A stretch of 51,995 nt of DNA from Nitrospirota bacterium (GTDB lineage: Bacteria; Nitrospirota; Thermodesulfovibrionia; Thermodesulfovibrionales; UBA6898), in NCBI GenBank assembly GCA_016235245.1, contig JACRLO010000041.1, forward strand, positions 1 through 51,995, given 5' to 3'. The number at the start of each line of letters is the position of its first letter. Within the stretch, counting starts at the first letter, position 1. Shown one piece after another: positions 7,631-44,775 of the stretch. A program made the position numbers and the translations under genes. Below the pieces are notes generated by a model. That model saw nothing but the letters and a program-made list of their open reading frames with translations. It did not search any database and was not told where the DNA came from.

Positions 7631-8173
7631 TCATTCAGTATTTAATGGTTTGGCATCTGTTTCAATTCTGCGAATTTCGGTGACGTATGGATATCCTAAA
7701 TAGCCATTTTTCAAGATAAGCTGTTCTTTCACACTGTTTTTTTCTTTAATTATTATCTTTGGCTGAGTCTGATCGAAGCCCTGGTTTATAACCAGCAGGC
7801 AAAAGACAATTGGCGTTGAAATAAAAAAAGCAGTAACGACAATCAGGGCGAAGCGCAGCATGAATTTATTTGCCGTCAACCGTAGTTTTTTTGGAAGCCA
7901 AAAGGTAAATATCTCATTTCTGGAGCCTGATGCATCCGTATCTGATATGTACAATTTCCTGCTCTTAATATAAAGGATTGTGCCAACAACAATAATTGAT
8001 AGAGAATAGAAGTCTTTTTCTAATCTGTAAGTTAGAGTCGTCTTCCAAGGCATGAAATAAAGAACCGGCGAAAGGAATGCAAATGGGAATAGTAATTTTA
8101 AAATGAATCTCGCAAAAGTATCTTTTCGAGTAGTAGAATTGTTTGCGAAATCATTCAATTTTTCTTTAATCAT
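7631..8173 (-). CDS. Hypothetical membrane protein
   Basis: 180 residues that I do not recognise. Hydrophobic stretches around residues 22-42, 53-70 and 106-128 suggest three membrane helices, followed by a ~50-residue polar tail (IIIKEKNSVKEQLILKNGYL) probably outside the membrane. The sequence is clearly more AT-rich than the nif genes on either side, which suggests a later insertion. A palindromic repeat lies just upstream of it. Confidence 0.6.
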   Translation of the reverse strand: MIKEKLNDFANNSTTRKDTFARFILKLLFPFAFLSPVLYFMPWKTTLTYRLEKDFYSLSIIVVGTILYIKSRKLYISDTDASGSRNEIFTFWLPKKLRLTANKFMLRFALIVVTAFFISTPIVFCLLVINQGFDQTQPKIIIKEKNSVKEQLILKNGYLGYPYVTEIRRIETDAKPLNTE

Positions 8174-41889: not shown

Positions 41890-42037
41890 CAGCTACTCCC
41901 TGTACTCAACGCTAAGACCTTCTCTTAGAAACTGCTCAATTCTCCTGCAATTAAACGCGTTTTAGAAAACCGCTCCGCCTATTTTCAGCTCAATTCAAAT
42001 AGAGTCTTCTACAAGCACGATCATTCCAAGATCGTTT

Positions 42038-42073: not shown

Positions 42074-42553
42074 ATGATGATAAAGATAAAGCTGGGCTAT
42101 GTGATAGTCATCATCTTCATGGTGGCTTTTGCCAGCAGGCTCGATGCGGCTGATGCAATAAATGGATTCACTCAGCAGACCCTTGATGGAAAGACTATCA
42201 GATCCGAAGTGTTGAAGGGATTGCCAATGGTGATTAACATCGGCTCACACTGGTGACCACAGTGCAAGCTGGAGGCTCCAGCTCTTCAGAAGGCTTATCT
42301 GACCTACGGGAAAAAAGGCGTGTTTTTTCTGGGCATCTTTGCAATGAGCAGCGATGATGAAATCAGGACTTTTACGGAAACCTATAAAATGACTTTCCCC
42401 GTTGGGAGAGAAAACGGAATAGCTGAAAAGCTAAAAGTCAGGGGAATACCAGCGACAATATTTGTTGCTAAAGATGGGAGTATTATCAAACGGCATATTG
42501 GGAGTATCACCTATGAGGAACTATCCACCAATATTGAGGCTATATTGAAATGA
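42074..42553 (+). CDS. Selenoprotein: periplasmic TlpA/thioredoxin-like redoxin with UPQC
   Basis: One frame from 42074 to TAA/TGA region end 42553 is broken only by TGA at 42254. Read as Sec (U61) the protein is 159 aa with signal peptide MMIKIKLGYVIVIIFMVAFA. The redox motif is VINIGSHWUPQCKLEAPALQ: the usual W-C-x-x-C of TlpA/ResA with U in place of the first, attacking Cys. The thioredoxin fold continues with the conserved cis-Pro in KVRGIPATIFVAKDGSII. A perfect hairpin follows the UGA at SECIS distance. ATG 42074 is preferred to 42050 because of the GGGGA just before it. The next gene starts 25 bp after. A single random nonsense mutation exactly at the catalytic Cys is far less likely. 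Confidence 0.88.
42267..42283 (+). promoter_or_regulatory. bSECIS-like hairpin for Sec61 of the redoxin
   Basis: AGCTGGA-GGC-TCCAGCT, perfect 7-bp stem, begins 10 nt after the UGA; the GGC loop starts 18 nt after it. Bacterial SECIS elements lie just downstream of UGA inside the coding region and often have G in the apical loop. Confidence 0.7.
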
Positions 42554-42578
42554 TAAGACGCTTTATGAAGGAATTAAG

Positions 42579-42869
42579 ATGAAAGAAGCATTGTTTAAGG
42601 GCGGTGCGATAACATCAGCTTTAGCTTATTTGTTCTGTTGACAGCTTCCACTGGTACTGGCCAGTTTCGGTCTAGGCAGCTTTACTTTTGCAGTATGGAT
42701 GTTGAAGTACAGATGGATATTTATGGTGATAACTTTTATTTTTCTTGGTTTCGCCTTTTACATGACCTATAGAGGCAAAAAGAAAGCAAGTACATTGCAT
42801 ATAAGTATGCTCTTTGGAACAACTGCACTGTGCATGGGAATGGTAATATTTACGCTGTTTTACAGGTAG
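42579..42869 (+). CDS. Selenoprotein: MerT-like small membrane protein with a Cys-Sec pair
   Basis: Missed by normal ORF calling because of TGA 42639. Read as Sec (U21), the product is 96 aa: MKEALFKGGAITSALAYLFC, then UQLPLVLASFGLGS, with about three helices (residues ~8-35, 43-60, 68-92). This is the layout of MerT mercuric transporters, where the first helix has vicinal Cys-Cys-x-x-Pro; here it is Cys20-Sec21-Gln-Leu-Pro. The stop is TAG 42867-42869. RBS gaaggaatta precedes ATG 42579. The next gene's RBS overlaps the stop. It probably binds or passes a soft metal ion or thiol/selenol across the membrane; the substrate is inferred only from the MerT likeness. Confidence 0.8.
42650..42665 (+). 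promoter_or_regulatory. bSECIS-like hairpin for Sec21 of the MerT-like protein
   Basis: ACTGG-TACTGG-CCAGT, a 5-bp stem with a 6-nt loop holding GG, its loop starting 14 nt after the UGA. Weaker than the other three, but similarly placed. Confidence 0.55.
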
Positions 42870-42879
42870 GAGGTTTAGC

Positions 42880-44016
42880 ATGACTGACAAGATGAAAGAA
42901 AATCACAACTCCCCTTGTTGACCATCTGCCTTAGATGCTGGCAAGCATCATACTGATTCAATAACTCAGAAACAGTCTGGAGAGACAGAGCACTGCATGG
43001 TCTGTGGCTCGACTCTGGAATATCTTGAACAAGCCCAAAGTCTCTCCTGCACTTACTGTAAAAAAACAGAACTTGGGCATGTCAGATGCCCCAATGGTCA
43101 TTATATCTGTGACACGTGCCATAACAAAGGGGCTATGAAGACCATTGAAGATATAGCCTACAGCACAACGTCAAAAGACCCCATTGAGATATCAGAGCTA
43201 ATGATGAGCTATCCAGAATTAACCATGCTCGGTTGTCAACATGCCTATATTGCGGGTGGGGCATTAATGGCAGCACTGAAGAATGAAGGCTCAAAAGGAG
43301 TATCCAATACTGAGATTACTGAGGTTTTTAGTCGAACGGGGAAACAGGCTCATGGTGGCTACTGCGGTCTTACAGGTGTTTGCGGAATTGCTCCCGCAAT
43401 AGGTGCCTGCTTTGCAGTGCTGACAGGCTCAAAATGTGGCAAGGATGAAGAGCAGAGAATTACTATGGAGGCGGTAACAAAGGTTACAAAGGCAATCACT
43501 GACCTGACAGGTCCAAGTTGTTGTAAGGCTTATGTCAGGACATCCCTGCTAACCGCAGTAGAGATTCTAAAGGAAAGATTTGCTGTTGCTATCCCCATTA
43601 AGGATATTGCCATTAAGTGTAAACACAGTGAGAAACATCCTCATGGGTGTCGAGAAACTAAATGTCCTTTTTTTGAAATACAGGAGGGAGTGAAAACCAT
43701 GTCATCAAAATCGATGGACAAATATGATGAGTTCTTTTCCATGACATACCAGCAAGGCGCCATGGATGTAAAGACAAAGCATCTTGTAGCACTTGGAGCT
43801 TCATTGGGGGGTGGATGTCAGCCCTGAACTGAATACTGTCTTGCCGTGGCAAGACAACAGGGGGCAACCGATTCGGAAATAGATGAGGTAATAACAATAG
43901 CTATGACCATTGGAGCACATAAAATCCGACTTATGGCTGAAAAAGGGCAGTTACCTATCGGCAAAACTGATGAGTCAAATTCACCCAAAGCTGAAGAAAG
44001 CACGGGCTCTACCTGA
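42880..44016 (+). CDS. Selenoprotein: DUF5714-AhpD-like fusion with two Sec
   Basis: A 378-residue frame is interrupted by two TGAs: U14 (42919) in NSPCUPSALDAG and U316 (43825) in LGGGCQPUTEYCLAVARQQ. The centre (about 30-265) is a Cys-rich DUF5714-like domain: HCMVCGSTLEYLE, CTYCKKTELGHVRCPNGHY, GCQHAYIAGGALMAALKNEG, GGYCGLTGVCGIAPAIGACF. The C-terminus is an AhpD/carboxymuconolactone-decarboxylase-like all-alpha domain, where CQPU stands in the place of the C-x-x-C disulfide reductase motif. It ends at TGA 44014-44016, which lacks any Cys or hairpin context. ATG 42880 follows taggaggtttagc. Conventional annotation would call only 42997-43827. Confidence 0.85.
42934..42949 (+). promoter_or_regulatory. 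bSECIS-like hairpin for Sec14 of the DUF5714 protein
   Basis: GATGC-TGGCAA-GCATC: 5-bp stem, loop with GG starting 18 nt after the UGA. Confidence 0.65.
43837..43856 (+). promoter_or_regulatory. bSECIS-like hairpin for Sec316 of the AhpD-like domain
   Basis: TGTCTTGC-CGTG-GCAAGACA: perfect 8-bp stem, loop starting 18 nt after the UGA. The strongest of the four. Confidence 0.75.
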
Positions 44017-44102
44017 ACACCTAAGTAATGTCCAGTTAGGACGACAAGTGAGGAATATAATCGGTAATCTTGCTCGTGGTGAAAGTTCTACTCTGCTGAG
44101 TT

Positions 44103-44215
44103 GTAGGTGTAACAGACCAATAATTATGGTGCGTTAAACTCCGGTAAGATGGTATCAACCGATATCGCCTTCGGGGCGGTTTTCGATATCAGCTACAAAG
44201 GGGGCTAACAGCCCT
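44103..44215 (+). repeat. Dispersed repeat, copy 4 (A part and start of B)
   Basis: gtaggtgtaacagaccaata through ttttcgatatcagctacaaa matches 35522-35618 with few differences. GATATCG/CGATATC arms are conserved. It ends in GGGCT-AAC-AGCCC-TTTT, which may act as a terminator of the selenoprotein operon. The remainder of the gap to 44344 shows no further feature. Confidence 0.75.
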
Positions 44216-44344
44216 TTTCCTTTTGGTGGTCAGTGTGATCCTACTGAAGGCAATTTGAGTTTATAACGATAATATAGCGGTATCGGCATAAAAGATTTGC
44301 TCCGCTATGCCAATAAGATAATATAAATTTTCGTTACTTTTTCC

Positions 44345-44578
44345 TCATTTCTTTGCTATCTCGTTGTCACAAGCAAGAACAGAATTATTGAGAGCAAAGT
44401 CATCTATTCGGTTGATGTTGTCTTCGATTTTGATGGATTTGTAAGCTCCGAAATAAAGCTCGCCGAGAGCAATGGAAGGCACAAATATTTCTTCAGCTTT
44501 TACGATACGTGCATGAATTTGAGGGTCTTTCGCAAAAAGAGCGATAATAATATTTGTATCAAGCAGATATCTACCTTC
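44345..44578 (-). pseudogene. PIN-domain (VapC-like) toxin remnant
   Basis: Reading from 44578 down: GRYLLDTNIIIALFAKDPQI, VKAEEIFVPSIALGELYFGA, YKSIKIEDNINRIDDFAL and ACDNEIAKK, then a stop at 44345-44347. The first acidic PIN residue (LLDTN) and Glu (GELYFG) are present, but there is no start codon and the C-terminal ~50 residues with the remaining acidic site are gone. An inactive relic fused by deletion to the end of the antitoxin gene. Confidence 0.75.
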
Positions 44579-44775
44579 TCACAACCTTCTTCTATTGCGG
44601 CAGACATTAATTTCAGGTCTTCAGCGGGTATTGCCCCTTCAAATTTCACAAGAGACTTTCCAGTAATTCCTTTTGGCATTAAAGCTGAGGCAAAATCAAG
44701 GACGCGAAGCTGAAGGTCGTAAGGAAGCTTATCAAGCCGGGCAATCAGATTGTCTCTTATTGCTGCATTTGTCAT
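44500..44775 (-). CDS. Antitoxin of the decayed PIN module, 3' end altered
   Basis: 91 aa. MTNAAIRDNLIARLDKLPYD, LQLRVLDFASALMPKGITG and AEDLKLMSAAIEEGCEKVD resemble the short antitoxins (DUF2281-like) that precede PIN toxins. From about residue 70 the frame runs over the toxin's coding sequence in a different phase (ICLIQILLSLFLRK), because a small deletion has merged the genes. The authentic part is about 44590-44775. RBS aggaggtgg on the minus strand. Confidence 0.65.
   Translation of the reverse strand: MTNAAIRDNLIARLDKLPYDLQLRVLDFASALMPKGITGKSLVKFEGAIPAEDLKLMSAAIEEGCEKVDICLIQILLSLFLRKTLKFMHVS

Follow-up and report, generated by a model that had tools for sequence, protein, structure and literature searches.

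The locus analysed here raises two questions: are the TGA codons lying within three adjoining genes of a Nitrospirota bacterium read as selenocysteine (Sec, U), and what might an operon made up of such genes do for the cell? The window, i.e. the whole stretch of DNA that was analysed, is 51,995 nt long and belongs to a 3.25 Mb assembly that is 96% complete. The main reading, to which we assign a probability of about 0.8, is that the locus is a three-gene selenoprotein operon with four, probably five, Sec residues, that it represents an abridged form of a multi-selenoprotein cluster, and that its products may act on a soft metal by the mechanism proposed below.

Organisation of the locus

With TGA translated as Sec, three successive frames are obtained on the plus strand of the window (42074-42553, 42579-42869 and from 42880). 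They contain in-frame TGAs at 42254, 42639, 42919 and 43825 and are otherwise open, in agreement with the initial annotation in both coordinates and frames. The intergenic gaps are 25 nt (ORF1/ORF2) and 10 nt (ORF2/ORF3), and plausible ribosome-binding sites precede the starts, the clearest being those of ORF3 (AGGAGG) and ORF2 (AAGGAA). The motifs around the TGAs are HWUPQC, FCUQLP, PCUPS and CQPUTEYC, as had been described, and profile matches bear out the earlier assignment of the products as a periplasmic redoxin, a MerT-like protein and a DUF5714-AhpD-like protein. The features of the locus are listed below.

42074-42553, plus strand: ORF1, thioredoxin of ResA/TlpA-like type, signal-like segment at the N-terminus, active site WUPQC (AhpC-TSA 1.3e-15; ResA model 1.9e-22; 11 homologues with Sec there)
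42254-42256, plus strand: UGA, Sec61 of ORF1, first (nucleophilic) position of a CxxC-type motif (ResA alignment; hairpin)
42579-42869, plus strand: ORF2, MerT-like membrane protein of 96 aa, CU within transmembrane helix 1 (NF033560 MerT, 2e-14)
42639-42641, plus strand: UGA, Sec21 of ORF2 (alignment with the CC of Exiguobacterium MerT; hairpin kept in homologues)
42880-44028, plus strand: ORF3, MbdU-type protein, DUF5714 and CMD/AhpD (domain matches; AF2 model)
42919-42921, plus strand: UGA, Sec14 of ORF3, PCUPS (CU kept in 47 homologue loci; hairpin)
43825-43827, plus strand: UGA, Sec316 of ORF3, CQPU in the CMD/AhpD domain (C[QE]PU in homologues; hairpin)
44014-44016, plus strand: UGA, probable fifth Sec codon, GSTU-TPK (homologue tails; hairpins)
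44029-44043, plus strand: putative SECIS hairpin TGTCC[AGTTA]GGACG, past the ORF3 frame (geometry; homologues)
44198-44218, plus strand: terminator-like hairpin closing the operon (consensus match only)

ORF1 ends in TGA TAA and ORF2 in TAG. The TGA at 42551 was considered as a further Sec codon and rejected, since it has no hairpin and TAA follows directly. A search of Rfam found no RNA family within the operon. Upstream of ORF1, an inverted repeat (ACGATC-N7-GATCGT, 42017-42035) lies before a TATAAT-like box and could serve as terminator or operator. The operon is closely followed, on the minus strand (44264-44775), by a PIN-domain toxin-like frame broken by in-frame TGAs; beside it stands a DUF2281-like frame, and the two look like a decayed toxin-antitoxin pair.

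Selenocysteine decoding of the UGA codons

The initial annotation had proposed that selA, selB, selC and selD be sought in the same genome. A tRNA-Sec gene (selC) with the anticodon UCA and a selD gene, itself Sec-containing (active site CAGUAAK), are both present in the assembly; models of selA and selB gave no match over cut-off there, and 32 kb of its contig C25 (C25:8001-40000) read N. Among related genomes, selA was found in 39 of 41, including all seven congeners, and in the three congeners examined it is adjoined by selB, beside queC. In two of these three (G001 and G005) the selA/selB block continues with plsY, pgsA and kdsC (gene names here and for queC were read from translations), and the block of G005 matches contig C25 of the source genome up to base 8000. 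By synteny, selA and selB are thus expected on C25 beside kdsC/kdsA, inside the stretch reading N, so that their absence is a property of the data and not evidence against Sec. Elsewhere in the source genome (L020, G000:C35:98000-108000), a Sec-containing selD is clustered with genes of an ArsR-like regulator, a TauE/SafE-like permease and a pyridine-nucleotide oxidoreductase; the MerT/MbdU operon of one relative (L092) has selD and a gene of TauE-like type nearby.

Scanning a single genome of each species and searching relatives gave about 80 relatives of MbdU. The Sec site was readable in 12 loci for MerT, 11 for the thioredoxin and 25 for a TsoA-like protein encoded in relatives (window included), and every one of these sites carries TGA. 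Whether homologues have Cys at the U columns, another check suggested at the outset, was answered positively for three of them: Sec21 of ORF2 falls on the second of the two adjacent Cys (CC) of Exiguobacterium MerT, Sec61 of ORF1 on the first Cys of the ResA WCxxC motif, and Cys replaces Sec at the N-terminal column of MbdU in L131 and L117 (Cys-Cys). In homologues of other phyla TGA is kept at every Sec column; no Cys homologue occurs at the Sec column of the TsoA-like protein among the 25 loci. Downstream of each UGA, pN/pS is about 0.2-0.4, with synonymous sites near saturation; the frames 3' of each UGA are under purifying selection. The decoding of UGA as Sec at the four sites, as originally claimed, is thus very well supported by the tRNA-Sec and selD genes, the cross-phylum TGAs, the Cys columns and the purifying selection. 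Two variants were also seen among the MbdU-AhpD relatives. One of them (L063, 5781-6947) has RR in place of the N-terminal CU while keeping CQPU and the C-terminal CU, i.e. it has lost one Sec site only; another (L066, 5905-6999, and also L152) has, besides CU and CQPU, one more in-frame TGA, which is situated in the linker (CPYFEKPKETPUANDY).

Bacterial SECIS elements (bSECIS) are described, in a 2026 review (PMC13188914), as having a stem of 4-16 bp and a loop of 3-9 nt with G at position 1-2, lying 16-37 nt after the UGA, with a minimum free energy (MFE) of <= -7.5. This geometry is found at all five UGA sites, with a region MFE of <= -7.5. A hairpin does follow each of the four TGAs, as had been noted, but its loop, placed earlier at 14-18 nt downstream, starts at nt 21, 25, 22 and 21 from the U, which is 17-21 nt after the UGA. 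The hairpins (loop in square brackets) are AGCTGGA[GGC]TCCAGCT for Sec61 of ORF1 (loop at nt 21), GGCC[AGTTTC]GGTC for Sec21 of ORF2 (conserved in homologues), GATGCT[GGCA]AGCATC for Sec14 of ORF3 and, with a stem of 8 bp, TGTCTTGC[CGTG]GCAAGACA for Sec316. When scored against all 2101 TGAs of the window, 2.1% of which reach 15 or more, those of the ORF1, N-terminal ORF3 and AhpD sites (18, 15 and 20) rank among roughly the best 2% or higher. The hairpin at the MerT site differs from the MFE structure and is weak alone, about 16% of window TGAs scoring as well; in homologues it is conserved, strong and more stable than after synonymous shuffling (mean z of -2.6, negative in 12 of 12). Folding energies at single sites are non-significant taken alone, and the case for SECIS is carried by geometry together with cross-species conservation.

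The TGA at 44014, previously taken as the stop codon of ORF3, is followed by ACA CCT AAG TAA, and the frame runs to the TAA at 44026-44028. The tails of homologues and their hairpins suggest that this codon is probably a fifth Sec, positioned in a C-terminal CxxU-like tail that the homologues have in common. These tails read SDC-U-TP (L063), GEC-U-TP (L071), ECST-U-AS (L151), CKP-U-ALS (L064), CEP-U-AIS (L091), CSF-U-T (L067) and GSS-U-A (L103 and L106). Hairpins of bSECIS geometry are present at eight of ten homologous C-terminal UGAs, several of the eight sequences being related to one another, compared with 9% of 14,317 background TGAs; L067 and L088 have no good hairpin. At several of these UGAs, including that of the window, the hairpin is located 3' of the TAA or TAG, and so conservation of the protein cannot account for it. 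The window hairpin has its loop at nt 21; the loop sequence, AGTTA, fits the AGTT(T/A) pattern that relatives show at their MerT, AhpD and thioredoxin sites.

Alternatively, the TGA at 44014 might be a true stop, leaving ORF3 with two Sec only. This would agree with the Gly of the window where relatives have Cys (GSTU vs CSTU), with a hairpin score that is reached by 7-9% of TGAs, and with the two relatives without a good hairpin, but it would not account for the eight bSECIS hairpins, some of which lie beyond the frame, or for the conserved UTP or UA(S) residues after the UGA, and we consider it possible without favouring it. Because of this Gly, of a lone hairpin that is within chance and of the relatedness among the sequences, the fifth Sec is held as probable and not as firmly as the other four. 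The finding suggests that gene callers may cut off further C-terminal Sec in MbdU-like proteins, since such a UGA resembles a proper stop and its SECIS is partly outside the frame. As for the TGAs as a whole, the idea that they are sequencing errors, pseudogene stops or Trp codons of a changed code, which the draft state of the assembly and the in-frame TGAs of the PIN fragment might recommend, is effectively refuted by the recurrence of the same TGAs at Sec columns in independent genomes of several phyla, and is further opposed by the fact that relatives have Cys and not Trp at the MerT column and at the N-terminal column of MbdU, by the TGA (TGA TAA) that terminates ORF1 and by the tRNA-Sec.

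The encoded proteins and the larger operon in relatives

The first-helix CC pair of MerT binds Hg(II). The ORF2 homologues of L069, L079, L080, L091 and other loci share the motif FCU/MCU-QLPL, and the MerT score of ORF2 is under the equivalog cut-offs. In the source genome, no true merA was recognised: its best match (338 bits, cut-off 454) is a MerA-like protein that ends in GRACG without the terminal CC. Classic mercury resistance via merA therefore has no support, and simple mercury reduction is unlikely. A plasmid collection yielded only distant matches to DUF5714 and MerT.

ORF3, which would be 382 aa long with Sec at 44014, consists of an N-terminal CU, zinc-ribbon-like Cys pairs, a DUF5714 domain (9.8e-48) and a CMD/AhpD domain (6.7e-12) with CQPU, followed by the probable C-terminal Sec. 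The MbdU model NF045648 matches residues 8-307 with 414.5 bits, below its cut-off of 600. Invariant Cys residues occur all along the zinc-ribbon-like and DUF5714 parts of ORF3. Fold comparison of the AF2 model revealed a CMD fold at the C-terminus; for the DUF5714 domain, no PDB match was found by sequence or fold. AhpD works through a CxxC pair, and C[QE]PU occupies the AhpD site in seven homologous loci (L063, L064, L066, L067, L071, L090 and L091). In three of these (L064, L090 and L091), AhpD is encoded by a separate downstream gene, and in a tree of DUF5714 the AhpD label is scattered, at least four changes being forced, with the exact position of the window left loose. The separate genes and the number of changes point to partner swapping and not to a single event. 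The models ArsM_AhpD_UU and ArsM_DUF2284_UU match the C-terminal domains.

Haft and Tolstoy reportedly named MbdU and Tso in 2025. In eight loci (L069, L079, L091, L092, L094, L113, L114 and L142; the sequence of L095 equals that of L094), the gene order is thioredoxin, TsoA-like, MerT, MbdU, and all of these genes have an in-frame TGA. An ArsR-type gene precedes the operon in five of them (L069, L092, L113, L114 and L142); the two such genes that were scanned match TsoR below cut-off (80 bits, TsoR-like), and the TsoA-like gene matches NF045695, also below cut-off (99 bits). The TsoA-like protein, encoded between the thioredoxin and MerT, is about 160 aa long and has a conserved TGA (MVE[YH]UIKEC) and a FeoC/winged-helix-like C-terminal half; its structure model is of low confidence (pLDDT 67) and was set aside. 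In Desulfobulbaceae, the end of TsoA overlaps the start of merT (ATGA), and an apparent second UGA at the TsoA end of relatives (UKKKSPAA) was rejected as being this overlapping start, read in another frame. In-frame deletions have apparently joined TsoA with the MerT end (L065, 154-504), or the MerT start with MbdU (L090, 4364-5685), which indicates that the core of MerT was lost repeatedly.

The window contains neither TsoA nor TsoR genes, and no ArsR/TsoR gene accompanies its copy of the operon. A search of the source genome for TsoA gave no match, and the control likewise gave no match anywhere; full-length TsoB above cut-off was absent from the genomes tested. None of the seven congeners has the MbdU gene of the operon. 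Judging from gene content and order, the trio of the window is apparently an abridged, domain-swapped form of the TsoR-like/thioredoxin/TsoA-like/MerT/MbdU operon of Desulfobulbaceae and Nitrospirota.

Possible function and comparison with known systems

The locus brings together, in one operon whose order is conserved across phyla, three selenoprotein families with at most a loosely assigned function, and it indicates a testable role with soft metals or metalloids. It is proposed that SelB and tRNA-Sec(UCA) decode UGA as Sec at four, probably five, sites via a bSECIS just downstream of each. The periplasmic Sec-thioredoxin would reduce or hand over a soft-metal or metalloid adduct, which the CU ligands of the MerT-like protein might carry across the inner membrane. 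In the cytosol, MbdU may capture the metal via its CU and zinc-ribbon Cys, and its AhpD redox pair would turn the adduct over, possibly with resolution by the C-terminal Sec. That the gene set handles a soft metal or metalloid is probable from its composition; for this particular route from thioredoxin through MerT to MbdU, with its presumed substrate, direction of transport and chemistry, the odds seem slightly better than even. With more reserve, and at somewhat less than even odds, the operon may be viewed as an import-and-neutralise pathway for soft metals built almost wholly of selenoproteins across periplasm, membrane and cytosol, in which the cytosolic protein contains three Sec, the last of them in a CxxU-like tail at the C-terminus, past the annotated stop and directed by a SECIS within the 3' untranslated region. 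If so, such a C-terminal Sec would be systematically missed in the current annotation of the MbdU-type family.

The same genes might instead form a general thiol or peroxide redox operon, in which the thioredoxin, AhpD and MbdU are a reductant chain acting on peroxides or disulfides, and what the MerT-like protein relays is electrons or thiols instead of metals. ResA/TlpA and AhpD are indeed redox folds, and in both WUxxC and CQPU Sec takes the place of a redox Cys. This explanation is unlikely in view of the homology to MerT, in which CU falls precisely on the CC pair that binds Hg, the many invariant Cys and zinc-ribbon positions of DUF5714, and the ArsR/SmtB-type TsoR-like gene upstream in relatives; in Eubacterium eligens, moreover, a Cys-only DUF5714 gene is flanked by an ArsR gene on one side and a gene for a low-molecular-weight phosphatase on the other. 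The combination of a periplasmic Sec redoxin, a membrane ligand pair, a cytosolic protein rich in Cys and Sec, and the ArsR/SmtB regulator of relatives suits the handling of a thiophilic metal or metalloid more than it does a defence against peroxide. An arsenic-specific variant, in which the operon handles arsenite or methylarsenicals, draws on the use of AhpD and DUF2284 as fusion partners of ArsM also, on the matches of the two ArsM models mentioned above and on the ArsR-type regulator, but no arsenic-specific gene was recognised in the operon or the neighbours examined and the MerT homology points to Hg-like cations, so that it appears less likely still.

The closest known systems differ from the operon in several respects. 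ORF1 is a periplasmic-type thioredoxin with WUxxC, like the Sec TlpA/ResA-like thioredoxins, but scores below the curated cut-offs of the ResA models and belongs to a set tied to the MerT/MbdU operon. ORF2 shares the MerT fold family and a Sec in the region of the metal-ligand pair with Sec MerT (PF02411) and MerT_CopZ_Se (NF045683), while being 96 aa long with a CU pair, lacking the CopZ fusion and falling below both cut-offs. Compared with a mer operon, the pair in the first transmembrane helix is present as CU, without merA, merP or merR. ORF3 has the DUF5714 core, the N-terminal CU and two Sec in the recognised part in common with MbdU (NF045648); the model and its typical members end in DUF2284 with UPSGE, whereas ORF3 ends in CMD/AhpD with CQPU and a probable third Sec. 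The ArsM/AhpD and ArsM/DUF2284 proteins (NF041537 and NF041536) use the same interchangeable Sec-bearing partners (AhpD with CxxU, DUF2284 with U), although there the partner is an arsenite methyltransferase and in ORF3 it is DUF5714.

The initial annotation knew of no described operon of such composition. This does not extend to the families: MbdU (listed as from Haft & Tolstoy 2025), the Sec mercuric transport protein and Sec redoxins, those with UxxC included, are known selenoprotein families according to the review (PMC13188914), where SAO and Tso also figure as larger operons of selenoproteins, and TsoA and TsoR, matched beside the operon in relatives, are named NCBIfam families. The combination of thioredoxin, MerT and MbdU receives no mention in the passages of the review that were consulted. 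Relatives of the operon carry TsoR-like and TsoA-like genes upstream, as in the Tso operon (TsoR, TsoA, TsoB, TsoC), whereas the operon of the window has thioredoxin, MerT and MbdU instead. What appears to be new is an AhpD-fused MbdU, with a likely C-terminal Sec, beside a Sec-MerT and a Sec-thioredoxin.
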